This document shows, in pieces, positions 5,981 to 34,233 of a stretch of 64,000 nucleotides of DNA. This stretch comes from Terriglobia bacterium. Its GTDB lineage: Bacteria > Acidobacteriota > Terriglobia > Acidiferrales > UBA7541. The DNA lies in NCBI GenBank assembly GCA_020073485.1, contig JAIQFB010000022.1:62001-126000 (forward strand), read 5' to 3'. Below the pieces are notes generated by a model. The model was not told where the DNA came from, did no database searches, and saw only the letters and a list, made by a program, of their open reading frames with translations. A program made the position numbers and the translations under genes. How positions within the stretch are numbered: position 1 is the first letter of the stretch; each line of letters begins with the position of its first letter.

Positions 5981-6850
5981 CTAATTCACACGGAAGCTGA
6001 CTTCCACGCGTAAATCAATCGGTGTCGGCTCGCCATCGAGCACGGTGGGCTCGTACTTCCTCTTGGCAACGGCCTCCAGAGCGGCGGGGATCAGGATGGG
6101 CTGACCGCTCAGCGCCCGCTCCTCTGTAACATTGCCATGCTCATCGATGATCGCGTCGATCACAACCACTCCGGAAATGCGCGATTGGATCGCAAGGAAC
6201 GGATACACGGGATCGAGTCCGTAAATCAATTTCGGCTGCTTTACTTCTCCTCCCACGCGAACCGGCTTTTTGGGTCCTTCCGCAATGGGAGCCGCGGGCG
6301 CCGCAACACCCCTCAGCGTGCCGCCGAGAACCCCTCCCAGAACGCCTCCCACCACTCCACCGGGAATTCCGCCCGGTACGCCTCCTGGAACTCCCGCACC
6401 GGCATCATCCAAGCTTCCGTCGTTCGTCGTCTTCGCGATGGTCCGAGGGATAAAACTGGGAGCCGTCAATTTGCCCGGCACAAACGTGTGAACCGGCGCG
6501 GTGCGCGCTGGGTGCGACATCGCCGGCGAACCCAAAGGTGGAGGAGGAGGCGCGGCTGGAGTCATGGGCGTGGCCAGAAAAGTCAGATTAAGCCTTTGGA
6601 TGTCGAGTCCGCTGGTGAAATACAGGGGAAGAACGAGAAACACTCCCAAAATGGCAAAGTGGACCACGAAGGAGGCGATCCAATCCAGGGGGCTGCGGCG
6701 CTGGTGTACCGAAGTGTGCTCGAGTATTGCCTCTGCCAGCACTTCATGCGTCGGGCCACCTTTGGGCGGCGGTAATTCGATATGCGCCCTTTCCCGTTCC
6801 ACAGGTCGAATTCCTCTTCCTCCCAAAAATATGGCCTGCTGATTGAACAT
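5981..6850 (-). CDS. TonB-family energy transducer with glycine-repeat linker
   Basis: A 289-aa inner-membrane protein that would couple the proton-motive force to TonB-dependent receptors. It has a cytoplasmic N-terminus of about 55 residues, one membrane helix (about 57-79), a proline stretch (about 95-106), a glycine-rich repeat (about 151-181, units GGVPGG, GGIPGG, GGVVGG, GGVLGG) and a TonB C-terminal domain (about 205-289, containing YGLDPVYPFLA and VVIDAIIDEHGNVTE). The start at 6850 was preferred over a GTG at 6871 because a GGGGGTG element precedes it at usable spacing. No exbB or exbD gene lies nearby. The next TonB-dependent receptor is at 13260-15365. Confidence 0.88.
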   Translation of the reverse strand: MFNQQAIFLGGRGIRPVERERAHIELPPPKGGPTHEVLAEAILEHTSVHQRRSPLDWIASFVVHFAILGVFLVLPLYFTSGLDIQRLNLTFLATPMTPAAPPPPPLGSPAMSHPARTAPVHTFVPGKLTAPSFIPRTIAKTTNDGSLDDAGAGVPGGVPGGIPGGVVGGVLGGVLGGTLRGVAAPAAPIAEGPKKPVRVGGEVKQPKLIYGLDPVYPFLAIQSRISGVVVIDAIIDEHGNVTEERALSGQPILIPAALEAVAKRKYEPTVLDGEPTPIDLRVEVSFRVN

Positions 6851-6872
6851 GATAACACCCCCGCCTGCCACT

Positions 6873-7522: not shown

Positions 7523-8206
7523 ATGACTCCAAACGTCTTCAAATGGACCGACATCGCGGTCGTACACGCGATTCGCCTGGGCGCCATTCTGCTGATCGCC
7601 CTGATCCTCAACCGGCTGCTGCGCGTGTTGACGCGGCGCCTGCTCCCGAAAGCCGGCAGCGAGGGCCTGGGAAGAATCGCGCGGATGCGCGAGCAGCACG
7701 TGAAGACGCTGGCAGGCCTGCTGTACAGCGCCGGGACGGCCATCATCCTGATCGGAGCGGTTCTTACGGCGCTGCCGGAATTCGGATTCAACGTCACCCC
7801 CATTGCCGCGGCCGTTCCCAACGGCGAAATTGCGCAGGTCGCGAATCTCAGCCGCGACTGGGGCCAGGTGTTCGTGGACGTCGCCGTGGCTTCTCAGGGA
7901 TCCCCCGACGAGGCCCTTGCCGCACTGGAACGCGTTTCCGCCGAATTGCGGAACGATGCCGCCTGGTCGCCGGTCCTGGTGGACGGGCCCCGCGTCCTGG
8001 GGATCGAAACCTTCGGACCGGCCGGCGCCACGCTGCGTTTGCAGCTTCGCACCGTTCCCGGCCGCCAGGACGATGCCGCGCGCGAGCTCCGCCGCCGGAT
8101 TCAAAATCGCTTCGAACAGGAACGGATTCATTGGGGCGGCGTGCAGCACGTGGAAATTGTGGGAAACGAAAAACTTCAGGGTCTTTCTGCGGGTTCGAAT
8201 TCCTGA
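7523..8206 (+). CDS. MscS-family channel protein lacking the pore helix and beta domain
   Basis: A 227-aa member of the small mechanosensitive channel family. Two membrane helices are visible (about 14-33 and 65-88). The protein then reads GFNVTPIAA, the run into the pore helix TM3, but jumps directly to VPNGEIAQVANLSRDW, which in intact relatives lies about 65 residues further on, after TM3 and the beta domain. The C-terminal alpha/beta domain (about 105-215) is complete. The junction is around residues 94-98 (7802-7816) and the frame is kept. So the gene carries an in-frame internal deletion and the product should not form a normal pore. Either a real deletion or an assembly collapse is possible. 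Confidence 0.82.
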   Translation: MTPNVFKWTDIAVVHAIRLGAILLIALILNRLLRVLTRRLLPKAGSEGLGRIARMREQHVKTLAGLLYSAGTAIILIGAVLTALPEFGFNVTPIAAAVPNGEIAQVANLSRDWGQVFVDVAVASQGSPDEALAALERVSAELRNDAAWSPVLVDGPRVLGIETFGPAGATLRLQLRTVPGRQDDAARELRRRIQNRFEQERIHWGGVQHVEIVGNEKLQGLSAGSNS

Positions 8207-8291: not shown

Positions 8292-9262
8292 CTACCGCTC
8301 CTTGGGACCGTGAGAGGAAAGTTCCAGCGATGCCCGCAGCGCCTCCTCCAATTCGGCCGTGCCGGCAATTACGACGCGGTTTCTTCCCTCCTGCTTGGCG
8401 CGGTACAGCGCCGAATCGGCCAGATGCAGAATCTGACTGACGTGGTAATCGGGCCAATCCCCCGTCGCCACTCCGCCTATGCTTAACGTGATTTTGAGAG
8501 ACCCGGAATCGGTTTCGACGGGACGCCGGAGGATCGCTTCGCGGAGCCGTTCGGCGTTTTCAGCCGATTCCGAACGGCTGCATCCCGGAAGCAGAATCAG
8601 AAATTCTTCTCCGCCGTAACGTCCGACGGCGTCATAGGTGCGGATGTCCGCCTGCATTCTGCTGGTCGCTTCGCATAGCACGCGGTCCCCGGCAAGGTGC
8701 CCGTAGGTGTCGTTGACGGATTTGAAATGATCCAGGTCGGCAATCAGAACGCCGAGCGAAACGCCTTCGCGCGAGGAACGGCTGACTTCGCGCTCCAGCA
8801 TTTCCATGATCGCGCCGCGGTTCCAGACTCCGGTCAGCGCGTCGTGCGTGGCCTTGAAGCGCATGGCTTCGCGCGCCTGGACCAGGCTGTCTTCCAGATC
8901 GAGCAGGCGCATGCCGACGCGAATCCTGGCGCGCAATTCCGCTGGATGAAAGGGCTTGGTGAGGTAATCGTCGGCTCCCGATTCCAGACCCTCGACGACG
9001 CTTTCCTTGGCGTCCTTGGCCGTGAGCAGCAGTATGTAGGTGTAGGGCGCGGGACGCAGCTTGCGCATTTCGCGGCAAACATCGACGCCGTTTTGTCCCG
9101 GCATCATCCAATCCAGCAAGGCCATGCGCGGCGCATCCGGCGATTTCAGATGCTCCCACGCGGCGTTGCCGTCCTCGGCGGTGACCACCTCATACCCCCA
9201 CTTGACTAGAAATCCGCGAAGCATGTGGCGGGAAACGGGTTCGTCATCGGCGATCAATATTT

Positions 9263-9266
<4 letters not shown>
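8292..9266 (-). CDS. Response regulator with diguanylate cyclase (REC-GGDEF) domain
   Basis: A 324-aa PleD/WspR-like protein. The REC domain spans residues about 1-120, with phosphoacceptor D52 in LLDWMMPG and conserved K104. The GGDEF domain spans about 140-305, with an intact GGEEF active site (218-222) that makes c-di-GMP from two GTP. An RxxD motif (209-212) five residues ahead matches the allosteric inhibitory I-site. The start at 9266 overlaps the stop of the hybrid kinase gene by four bases (ATGA), so kinase and cyclase are translationally coupled. The HPt domain of that kinase is the natural phosphodonor. Confidence 0.95.
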
Positions 9267-12448
<3,182 letters not shown>

Positions 12449-12449
12449 A

Positions 12450-13130
12450 TCAGTTCTTCGCGCCGGCCGCGCTGTCAATCACCGCGGCGGCCAAGGACAA
12501 CAATTTCGAGCTGACTTTCAAATGCGCGCGGCTGGCGGCTCCCACGTCTATGGCCACCCGCACGCGGGAATCCTGGATCACAAACTGAATCATTCCCCCG
12601 GATTCGACAAAGTGATCCATGTCCGCGACCGTAAGCACGCTGGAGCCATGCAGGCCCGCCAGGATCGCCGGGAGACGCTTTTTTTCCGACGCACCGATGA
12701 ACAGGATGTGGCAGCCGCGCAAATCCTCGATCGTCGTGAAGTTCTTCACCTCCAGTTCCCGGCCGCGGATGGACTTGCCGGTCACCAGTTGTTTCAAATC
12801 CTCGTCCACCGGGGTGTCCCCCACCACTCCGAGCACCCATTGCGTTTGCGTTACCCTGGCCGCGTCGTCGGGCCAGTCCACGAATTTCAAGAAATTGAAC
12901 AAATACGCCGCCTTGACCTCGGAATCCGTGGGGCCTTGTTGGGCGCGCATGGAGCGCTGCGCCGGCATCCAAACAGCGGCCAGGAAAAAAGCGGCGCCGG
13001 CAAGCCGCGTGCCGAGGCGAAGCGGGCCAAGCGGGCCGCTGGCGCGATCCGTGGCGCGGACAGGCGCCAGGCGTGGAGACCTTCGCTTGAATTTCCAGAA
13101 ACGCCGCACATCACCACCATTGGCCCGCAT
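12450..13130 (-). CDS. YfiR-family (DUF4154) periplasmic protein
   Basis: A 226-aa protein. Residues about 68-220 match the YfiR/DUF4154 family ([17 protein letters not shown] near the start of the domain, then ILFIGASE and [20 protein letters not shown]). In Pseudomonas, YfiR is a periplasmic repressor of the diguanylate cyclase YfiN, linking envelope signals to c-di-GMP. The first 65 residues contain an arginine-rich stretch and a hydrophobic segment (about 42-55) consistent with an export signal. The start at 13130 has no good Shine-Dalgarno site and the true start may be internal. It sits between the TonB-dependent receptor and the hybrid kinase. Confidence 0.85.
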
Positions 13131-16951: not shown

Positions 16952-18153
16952 GCGGCTGGCCACGGGTGGCATTTTTTTCCGACTCATATCACGGTGTGGA
17001 CGGAGTAGCCACGACGTGCCGCAACATCGTCGAGGCCGCGCGACTCCACCAGCTGCCGTTTCTGGCCGTCCATGCCGGGGCGACCCGGCGCAGAGTGAAG
17101 GACGGGCCGGTTGAAATTCTGGAACTGGATCGCGGACCCGTCGCTCTCAACCTCGACCGGCATCTGAAGTTCGACCTGCTATTTTCCTTTCATTACAAGC
17201 GAGTGCTGGAGGCGGCGCGCTCGTTTCGTCCTGACATTGTGCACATTACCGGTCCGGGCGACGTGGGTATCACCGGAGCGCGCGTGGCCTACGCCCTCGG
17301 CGTGCCTCTGGTCGCATCCTGGCACACGAATCTCCACGAATTCGCAGGCAGGCGGCTGGCGAAAATGGTGGCGCCGCTTCCCAAAGCGCAGCGGTGCGCC
17401 CTCGCGGGTGTCGCCGAAAAATATGTTTTGATGGCTTGCCTTCGTTACTATCAGATCGCCGATGTCATCCTGGCCCCCAACAGGGAACATGCGCTGCTTC
17501 TCCAGAACGGGACCAATAAACCCGTCTACCCCATGCGCCGGGGGATCGACACACAGCTTTTTTCTCCTCTGAAGCGCGACGCCAGCGACGGGATCTTCCG
17601 GCTGGGTTTCGTCGGCAGGCTTTGTCCCGAGAAAAACGTGCGCTTGCTGGCGGACCTGGAGCGGGGATTGTGCCAGCGCGGAATTCACAATTACCGTTTC
17701 AGCGTTGTGGGAGACGGGGATGAAAGGCCGTGGCTGGAGCGCAATCTTCAACGGGCCGATTTCACGGGCGAATTGCACGGGGAACTTCTGTCGCGGGCCT
17801 ACGCGAACATGGACGTCTTTGTGTTCCCGTCGGAAACTGACACCTACGGCAATGTGATCAGCGAAGCGATGGCGTCGGGCACGCCGGCGATCGTGACTTC
17901 CAAAGGCGGGCCAAAATACCAGGTGCAGGATGGCGTTACCGGATTTGTCGCGGACAATACGGGAGATTTTCTGACGAGGACAAACTGGCTGATGGCCAAT
18001 CCCCATCAGCACCGGAGGTTTCGCGAAGCCTGCCGCCTGTGGGCCACCGGCAGAACCTGGGACAATGTCCTCGACGACCTGTTGGAAGCGTATCAGGCCA
18101 GCTTTTCCACTCCTTTCATGAATCGCGTGGCGACGGCGCTGGCGGCAAACTGA
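16948..18153 (+). CDS. GT4-family glycosyltransferase (first of the cluster)
   Basis: A 401-aa GT-B fold enzyme of the family-4 type. The N-terminal half has FFSDSYHGVDGVATTCRNI, the acceptor-side loop of GT4 enzymes acting on lipids; the C-terminal half carries FVGRLCPEKNV and DTYGNVISEAMASGTPAIV, where the usual EX7E glutamate pair is D-x7-E. The start is a TTG at 16948 that overlaps the upstream TGA stop and is preceded by GGGAG; the frame is open for 247 codons further upstream, but that part is the shadow of the PHP gene. It probably transfers a nucleotide sugar to a lipid or glycan. Confidence 0.85.
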   Translation: MSGWPRVAFFSDSYHGVDGVATTCRNIVEAARLHQLPFLAVHAGATRRRVKDGPVEILELDRGPVALNLDRHLKFDLLFSFHYKRVLEAARSFRPDIVHITGPGDVGITGARVAYALGVPLVASWHTNLHEFAGRRLAKMVAPLPKAQRCALAGVAEKYVLMACLRYYQIADVILAPNREHALLLQNGTNKPVYPMRRGIDTQLFSPLKRDASDGIFRLGFVGRLCPEKNVRLLADLERGLCQRGIHNYRFSVVGDGDERPWLERNLQRADFTGELHGELLSRAYANMDVFVFPSETDTYGNVISEAMASGTPAIVTSKGGPKYQVQDGVTGFVADNTGDFLTRTNWLMANPHQHRRFREACRLWATGRTWDNVLDDLLEAYQASFSTPFMNRVATALAAN

Positions 18154-18381
18154 CTGGTGCATGTTCTGCGGCACTTGCAGATTTTCCGAGCGGTGCAACC
18201 CAAACGCGTCTGCGTATCTCCTGACTTCGGCATCGTGCCCCATTTCTGTTTCGTCCAGGCTGATACCGGCCGATCCCGTAGCGGTTCGCCTTCGCTCGTC
18301 ATTGCTTCTCAGGACAATATTAAAAGGGTTTTACACTGCTTTCATATGCGTGGCGACTGCCATGTGGCCCACTGGGGCTGG

Positions 18382-19038
18382 ATGAAAACGATCGAAACCG
18401 AAGAAAGGATCGCGCGCGGCCCGTCCCCTCCCCCGGCGCCGCATTGCGAATTGCCGCGCGGGGGCATGGCCACGGATGGCGTCCGGAAAGCGCCAACAGT
18501 CGGAGAAGTCATCGCCGGCCTGGCGCGCCATCCGGTTCGGAATCTTTTTGCCCGGTGGAACTGGAAGGCCGCGCTACTCAGTTCCCTGCTGCGCGGATTG
18601 ATTTTTTTCTGCACAAATTTGATTTCGGGATGGCATGCGGCGGTCGGAGCGCTGCTGGCGGAATTCGCGCTTCGTGCGGCCACTTCCGGTTTTTATGGCG
18701 CGATCACCGAAGCGCTCTCGGCGGCGCAGCCGCCGTGGGCGGCCACGGCCGCGGCCATGGTCGTGCTGCCGTGCCTGGCGCATACGCTGGAGTTTCTCGT
18801 CCATTGGCTGCGGGGAACGCCGAAGCTCGGGCTGAGCATTGGAACGTCCATGATTTTCACGGCATTTTCGACCGCGTTCAATTTATTCGCCATGCGGCGC
18901 GGCGTGCTCATCACCCATGGAGATAGCAAGCCCCTGTCGCATGACCTTGGCCGCGTCCCGCCGCTCTTATGGGAATTCGTGTCCGCCGTGCCGAAAATGA
19001 TCATGCGATTTCTGGCGCGCGTGGTTTCGACGAGGTGA
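18382..19038 (+). CDS. Multi-pass membrane protein of unknown function
   Basis: A 218-aa protein with a short cytoplasmic N-terminus and about four hydrophobic segments (roughly residues 62-85, 95-115, 125-145 and 155-175). I do not recognise a family. The start at 18382 is the first ATG that leaves a reasonable length; the frame runs back to 18157 without similarity or a ribosome site. It lies between the two GT4 genes on the same strand, so a role in export or assembly of their product is an inference from position only. Confidence 0.6.
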   Translation: MKTIETEERIARGPSPPPAPHCELPRGGMATDGVRKAPTVGEVIAGLARHPVRNLFARWNWKAALLSSLLRGLIFFCTNLISGWHAAVGALLAEFALRAATSGFYGAITEALSAAQPPWAATAAAMVVLPCLAHTLEFLVHWLRGTPKLGLSIGTSMIFTAFSTAFNLFAMRRGVLITHGDSKPLSHDLGRVPPLLWEFVSAVPKMIMRFLARVVSTR

Positions 19039-19078
19039 ACGGGACGATTCGCGAAATCCAAACCCAGGGAGGATTCGG

Positions 19079-20395
19079 TTGCCGATCAAGACTCTGCACA
19101 TTACGAATTGCTACCATGCCACTTCGGGAGGAATTCGCACTTTTTACCGCGCGCTTCTCGCCGCATCCAACGAGCACCGGCGGCAACTCCGCCTAATTGT
19201 TCCCGGCCCCGAAGACGGCATTGAGGAAATCGGCGAATTCGGACGGATTTACACGATCCAGGCGCCGAAATCCCCGTTCATCGATTCCGCGTATCGGCTT
19301 TTGCTCCCCCATCTCTACGCCCTGCCCTATCGTTCGCGGCTGCGGCAAATTCTGGAAGAAGAGCGGCCCGACCTGGTGGAGATCTGCGACAAATACACGC
19401 TCTGCTATCTGCCCCCGGCATGGCGGAACGGCTGGGCCGGAAACGCGCCTCCGGCGGTATTCATAGGCCTGAGCTGCGAGCGCATGGACGACAACGTCTC
19501 GGCCTTCCTCAGCGAGAGCCGGCTGGGGCGGCTCTTCGCGAATTGGTATATGCGCTCCATCTACGCTCCGCGATTTGATGGGCACATCTCCAATTCCGAA
19601 TACACGGCGGCAGAGCTGGTGGCGGCGCTCGCCAAGTGCCCGGATCTGCCCGTGCATGTTTGCCCGATGGGCGCGGACTGCGAGAAATTCGGCCCGCACC
19701 GGCGCGACCCTGCAAAACGCCAGGCGCTGCTGGCCGGTTTTCAAAACGCGCCGGCTGGCGGGAGAGATACGCGGCTTCTTCTGTATGTCGGGCGGATCTC
19801 CCGCGAAAAAAATATTTCGCTCCTGGTCGATATGATGGAACTTCTCGCGCGGAATTCACGGGACGACTACGCGCTCTTGATTTTGGGCCAGGGCCAGCTG
19901 GCCAATTGGATCCGGAAGAACATGGACCGCCGCGCGGCTGGCCGCGTGCGCCTGATCGGCCACATTTCCGATCGCGAACGCGTGGCCGATATTTTTGCCA
20001 ATTGCGACGCGCTGATCCATCCCAACCCGCGCAAACCCTTTGGGATCGCGCCGCTGGAGGCCATGGCTTCGGGCCTTCCGGTGGTGGCCCCGTATTCCGG
20101 CGGGGTGCTCTCCTACGCCAACGATTCCAACGCCTGGCTCGCCGAACCCAATGGCGCGAGTTTTGCCGCGGCCGTGCACGGGATATTCGAGGACGATGCC
20201 GCGCGCGGGGGGAAAATTGACCGCGCCATCGGCACCGCCAGCGAATTCAATTGGGCGAGAACGGCAGCACGCTTTTTTGAATTATACGATGGCCTGTTCG
20301 CGCGGCTGCGCCGTTCGCCTTCCGCAGCGCCGCAAGTTGAGGACGCGGCTGCAGCGCAATTGATTTTTAACTCCGATTCGAGCCGCCACGTATAG
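19079..20395 (+). CDS. GT4-family glycosyltransferase (second of the cluster)
   Basis: A 438-aa GT-B enzyme. The N-terminus (TLHITNCYHATSGGIRTFYR) has the glycine-rich acceptor loop. The C-terminal nucleotide-sugar domain shows LLYVGRISREKNISLLVDMM, LIGHISDRERVADIF and NPRKPFGIAPLEAMASGLPVV. The start is TTG at 19079 behind GGAGG. It lacks a signal peptide and acts in the cytoplasm. With the upstream GT4, PHP protein and membrane protein it forms a small glycan-building set. Confidence 0.85.
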   Translation: MPIKTLHITNCYHATSGGIRTFYRALLAASNEHRRQLRLIVPGPEDGIEEIGEFGRIYTIQAPKSPFIDSAYRLLLPHLYALPYRSRLRQILEEERPDLVEICDKYTLCYLPPAWRNGWAGNAPPAVFIGLSCERMDDNVSAFLSESRLGRLFANWYMRSIYAPRFDGHISNSEYTAAELVAALAKCPDLPVHVCPMGADCEKFGPHRRDPAKRQALLAGFQNAPAGGRDTRLLLYVGRISREKNISLLVDMMELLARNSRDDYALLILGQGQLANWIRKNMDRRAAGRVRLIGHISDRERVADIFANCDALIHPNPRKPFGIAPLEAMASGLPVVAPYSGGVLSYANDSNAWLAEPNGASFAAAVHGIFEDDAARGGKIDRAIGTASEFNWARTAARFFELYDGLFARLRRSPSAAPQVEDAAAAQLIFNSDSSRHV

Positions 20396-20413
20396 GCCTA
20401 CCTGGGTGAACGC

Positions 20414-20671
20414 ATGACGATCTGGTTCGAGGGAGTAGGAAGCGCGGCGGCGATGTGCACCACGCTATGCTGGCTGCCGCAGGCCGTGAAAATCATTCGC
20501 GAGAAAAAAACCTCGGGGATCTCACTGCTCACGCAAAGCGTGTTCACGCTGGGAGTCGCCCTGTGGGCGACCTACGGATTACTTCTTAACGATCCGCCCA
20601 TCATTTATGCGAATTTGGTCACGCTTGTGTTTTCGTCGGCCATCCTGATTCTCAAGCTTCGCTATCCCTGA
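20414..20671 (+). CDS. SemiSWEET sugar transporter (MtN3/PQ-loop family)
   Basis: An 85-aa, three-helix protein, the size of bacterial SemiSWEET half-transporters, which dimerise to move mono- or disaccharides. The family PQ motif is present (CWLPQAVKIIREKKTSGIS, residues about 17-35), followed by helices 2 (about 38-58) and 3 (about 62-82). It follows the second GT4 by 18 bases and closes the cluster, suggesting sugar supply to or removal from the pathway. Confidence 0.92.
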   Translation: MTIWFEGVGSAAAMCTTLCWLPQAVKIIREKKTSGISLLTQSVFTLGVALWATYGLLLNDPPIIYANLVTLVFSSAILILKLRYP

Positions 20672-20729
20672 GCGCGCGCTAAACGGCGTCCGGGAAGACC
20701 AGTCTGTTGGCAGGAGGGGCGAAGGCGAA

Positions 20730-34130: not shown

Positions 34131-34233
34131 TTTCCGTTCTCCTCTTTAACTTGCGATCACGCCATCCCAGTCATGGCGCAGGGTTCGTTACTCCGGTGGG
34201 CTCCAAGTAGAGCCCACACCCGTTGGTGAATGC

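Follow-up and report, generated by a model that had tools for sequence, protein, structure and literature searches.

A small MscS-type gene in a soil acidobacterium assembly lacks the pore helix and almost the entire beta domain through an in-frame deletion

In MscS channels, the pore is lined by the TM3 helix, while the beta domain joins the subunits. The best sequence matches in the PDB to the protein described here are 3t9n and 3udc, both MscS of Thermoanaerobacter tengcongensis. These structures have in common with it the PNGEI linker as well as the C-terminal alpha/beta domain but, unlike it, have a complete pore and beta domain; the match reached an E value of 2.4e-9 for our protein as compared to 3e-34 for its intact orthologue. 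An alpha/beta domain that, as in our protein, stands without the pore and the beta domain is known from E. coli ABDOM (MscS residues 175-265; PMC4440785), which is nevertheless a laboratory construct devoid of membrane helices and not a natural allele. The free E. coli domain binds FtsZ, and its overexpression leads to the formation of filaments (PMC4440785). Another study (PMC12334622) describes TcMscS as keeping a minimal portion of the MscS fold. We found no natural MscS deleted for TM3 and the beta domain in the open-licence literature.

The gene that we analyzed belongs to a soil acidobacterium genome, assembled into 46 contigs with a total of 5.05 Mb, and lies within the window, that is, the whole stretch of 64,000 nucleotides under study. 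The open reading frame delineated by the initial annotation was confirmed and encodes a product of 227 amino acids (Table 1). As a reference, we used the intact small MscS of a Terriglobia MAG from the same genus, G005 (G005:C176:196098-196973, JAIQFG010000001.1), which is found at the same locus with the same neighbors. The two proteins are 93% identical over their shared columns; however, the G005 orthologue has 292 amino acids and contains residues 98-162, encompassing TM3 and the beta domain, which are absent from the window protein.

Table 1. Positions of the gene, its two retained parts, and the deletion junction in the window (a slash marks the break).
Feature	Position	Strand	Evidence
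Small MscS-type gene with internal in-frame deletion	7523..8206	+	Open reading frame, 227-aa product
5' part (codons 1-97 plus one base): TM1 and TM2 as N-terminal helices, followed by the first TM3a residues	7523..7814	+	Alignment with L002; AF2 helices 4-45 and 51-87
Deletion junction ...GCCGCGGCCG/TTCCCAACGG...; 195 bp of G005 absent	7814..7815	+	Gapped alignment; orthologue junction sequences
3' part: end of beta domain (PNGEIAQVANLSRDW) and cytoplasmic alpha/beta domain, undamaged and in frame	7815..8203	+	Alignment; AF2; PDB fold match to MscS/YbiO

The alignment with the syntenic G005 orthologue (L002/L031) revealed a gap of exactly 195 bp, corresponding to 65 codons, which keeps the reading frame and agrees with the in-frame excision of about 65 residues (about 195 bases) that had initially been proposed. 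The 90 bases on either side of the gap are 87% and 93% identical. The lost segment begins where TM3a starts and stops immediately short of the final strand/linker of the beta domain (IPNGEIAQ...). Thus, the pore-lining TM3 with its glycine/alanine-rich sequence (AGLASLAVGFGAQ...) is missing, as had been claimed, whereas the claim that the beta domain had been removed holds for nearly all of it but not for the last strand/linker (VPNGEIAQVANLSRDW), which the window protein retains. Through the join, the protein reads ...ALPEFGFNVTPIAAAVPNGEIAQVANLSRDW..., essentially as given in the initial annotation but with one additional alanine. The family alignment has 39 invariant columns, of which 19 fall within the lost segment.

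The loss was also apparent at the level of domain signatures. Neither Pfam MS_channel_2nd (PF00924, beta domain) nor MS_channel_1st (TM2/3) matched the window protein, and a genome-wide search gave no match to PF00924 at this locus either; both were matched by the intact G005 orthologue, the former with 63.7 bits. For PF21082, which represents the alpha/beta domain, the window protein scored 17.6 bits with a cut-off of 21, and the intact orthologue was also unreported at E <= 0.001. We then aligned the window protein with 17 MscS homologues from related genomes, to which it is from 93% to 30% identical. The alignment contains one 65-residue gap and no other damage, in line with the proposal that the C-terminal domain continues in frame and is undamaged; the N-terminal helices are likewise intact. 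The window protein was also matched by NCBIfam NF047601 (E 6e-13), but with 48.8 bits against a cut-off of 500. By sequence relationship, the window protein is of MscS descent. Because TM3 and the beta domain are missing, the short product should be nonconducting and is not expected to form a mechanosensitive channel. Scans for a promoter and a terminator found nothing.

Structure prediction with AF2 yielded two long N-terminal helices followed by a confident alpha/beta domain, with pLDDT values of 76-94 per 10-residue block over residues 111-210. Across the join (residues 89-109), the pLDDT was below 50 and no confident structure was predicted. In the model of the intact orthologue, the TM3 helices occupy residues 93-105 and 109-124, and beta strands are found from residue 133 to 164. 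A Foldseek search with the short model returned structures of MscS and YbiO. The rmsd was large when taken over the whole chain, and 3.1 A for 99 columns aligned with one YbiO chain. Both the model and the fold match agree with the presence of the C-terminal alpha/beta domain in the window protein.

To place the short form among its relatives, we used a comparison set with one genome per species. All five congeners carry the intact form of 292-296 amino acids with a full PF00924 domain. Within the family, a match was detected in 72 of the 88 other genomes, always in open frames of at least 274 amino acids in which the match was split at the point of the junction, with the exception of one 47-aa contig fragment. 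When 399 genomes of the class were searched with a 60-aa query spanning the junction, only the source genome matched it in a single piece; in other genomes, its two halves matched separately, in long frames. The search for the same short form in other Acidobacteriota, which the initial annotation had put forward, returned the source genome only within the family and the class covered here, and no other short MscS form was found in either. The deletion is private to the source genome among the genomes compared.

We also evaluated the breakpoint itself. The junction had initially been described as GC-rich; however, its composition is not unusual, as the lost stretch has a GC content of 61.5% (in G005), the window gene 64.6%, and the window 60.5%. 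The junction DNA reads GCCGCGGCCG/TTCCC, and the codon at this position is ATT in three congeners and ATC in the other two. If the ancestral codon was ATT, there is no microhomology at the break; if it was GTT, CCG (3 bp) is shared at most, and the junction could be placed up to 3 bp further left. Repeats at the breakpoint were therefore rejected as the cause. Because a search of the genome revealed no Ku gene, end joining of the NHEJ type is unsupported, and we assume that the deletion would have arisen by another illegitimate event, such as replication slippage. Synteny with G005 could be aligned over about 66 kb, in which the gap in the window gene is the only sharp deletion of at least 50 bp with conserved flanks on both sides, as the flanks of a 50-bp gap located outside the window are weaker (0.72/0.88), and the compared stretch contains zero Ns. 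Having found no comparable case, we rejected the idea that other sharp deletions reveal a poor assembly.

Next, we asked whether the remaining codons bear signs of decay, as nonsynonymous changes would be more numerous in a gene that died long ago. Differences between the source genome and G005 were polarized with four outgroups. The window branch carries two nonsynonymous and seven synonymous changes, one of the two former being the junction codon, as compared to nine and nine on the G005 branch. A codon model gave an omega of 0.035 for the window branch versus 0.116 elsewhere, with a log-likelihood gain of 1.1, which was not significant. Thus, neither approach detected relaxed selection on the remaining codons. 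This implies that the deletion occurred recently as measured against the split from G005, that it is not real, or that constraint on the short form persists. Of these three readings, persisting constraint is the least simple, because no other genome has the short form. The lack of relaxed selection would be equally expected if the deletion existed only in the assembly.

The lost segment together with its flank had no other match in the 5.05-Mb assembly, where only the retained end of the window gene was recovered, and the genome contains no intact small MscS of the window type. It does have two MscL genes and one PF00924 match, which belongs to a different, roughly 650-aa MscS-like protein on contig 45; all five congeners likewise have a match that scores similarly. 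Because these channels remain, the loss of the small one is plausibly tolerated.

Taken as a whole, the locus is probably a loss-of-function allele of the small MscS gene that arose by a recent, private in-frame deletion and is tolerated through the remaining channels. A single 195-bp deletion, either in the lineage of the genome or in the sampled strain or population, would have removed codons 98-162 from its only small MscS-type gene. The frame would have been kept by chance (one in three), so that a 227-aa protein could still be produced in which TM1-TM2 lead directly into the cytoplasmic alpha/beta domain, and the two MscL and the larger MscS-like protein would make the loss tolerable.

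The assembly shows the deletion, and we infer that it is present in the organism's own DNA. It is less likely, though by no means negligible, that the organism has an ordinary 292-aa MscS and that the gap was created when the assembler picked a minority variant, closed a gap wrongly, or used a chimeric read. Such an error would fit with a genome in 46 contigs, with the intact gene in every relative, and with remaining codons that are as conserved as those of working channels. The initial annotation held that orthologues of normal length at this locus would indicate an artefact; such orthologues do exist, but they are equally expected for a real deletion that is private. Assemblers collapse at long repeats, the other usual causes of artefacts being chimeric reads and wrong gap closure. 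As the junction has no collapsible repeat, with 0-3 bp shared, a repeat-driven collapse is unlikely, and both the exactly kept frame and the lack of Ns argue against an error of assembly. Given that there is neither a junction repeat nor a second such gap in about 66 kb, these sequence comparisons favor a real deletion over an artefact.

We regard it as very improbable that the short form has been selected as a functional non-channel, whether as an alpha/beta domain anchored in the membrane for partner binding or as a subunit that dampens other MscS-type channels. The preserved frame with both flanking parts and the low omega of the window branch are in keeping with such a role, as are the alpha/beta domain, which is predicted to fold alone, and, by analogy, the FtsZ binding of the free E. 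coli domain (PMC4440785). However, if the deletion is recent, a low omega is to be expected from the period that preceded it, and the join has no confident predicted structure. Moreover, the short form occurs in no other genome of the family or of the 399 of the class, and there is no intact small MscS of the window type to act on; the non-channel or dominant partner suggested initially thus received no positive support. That the short form is still a channel, with TM2 or a junction helix replacing TM3, is scarcely credible, as the glycine-rich TM3a and TM3b are gone together with nearly half of the invariant positions. TcMscS is reportedly reduced outside TM3 and the beta domain and keeps both. 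In favor of a surviving channel stands the existence of small MscS variants with reduced domains, such as TcMscS (PMC12334622).

As a private in-frame deletion, the allele would be an ordinary example of gene decay. It also cautions that a protein may have lost its active core even though the open frame still has a plausible length. Should the short form prove to be fixed and conserved in sister strains, it would offer a natural test of the role of the MscS cytoplasmic domain apart from conduction.

Several further features of the window were recorded. A 22-bp indel near position 34190, which appeared as a frameshift, was dropped because it is located within long frames that are probably not genes. 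Positions 17079-20728 hold about 3.65 kb here, whereas G005 has about 21 bp at the corresponding point of the synteny, reflecting either an insertion here or a deletion there. On the minus strand, positions 5981-6871 encode a protein named TonB-type by inspection, in which a Gly/Val/Pro-rich repeat stretch (GGVPGGIPGGVVGGVLGG...) separates an N-terminal helix from the C-terminal domain. Also on the minus strand, at 8292-12478, a response regulator-GGDEF protein adjoins a hybrid sensor kinase of 1071 aa, which has two receiver domains and ends in an Hpt-like part, again as judged by inspection.
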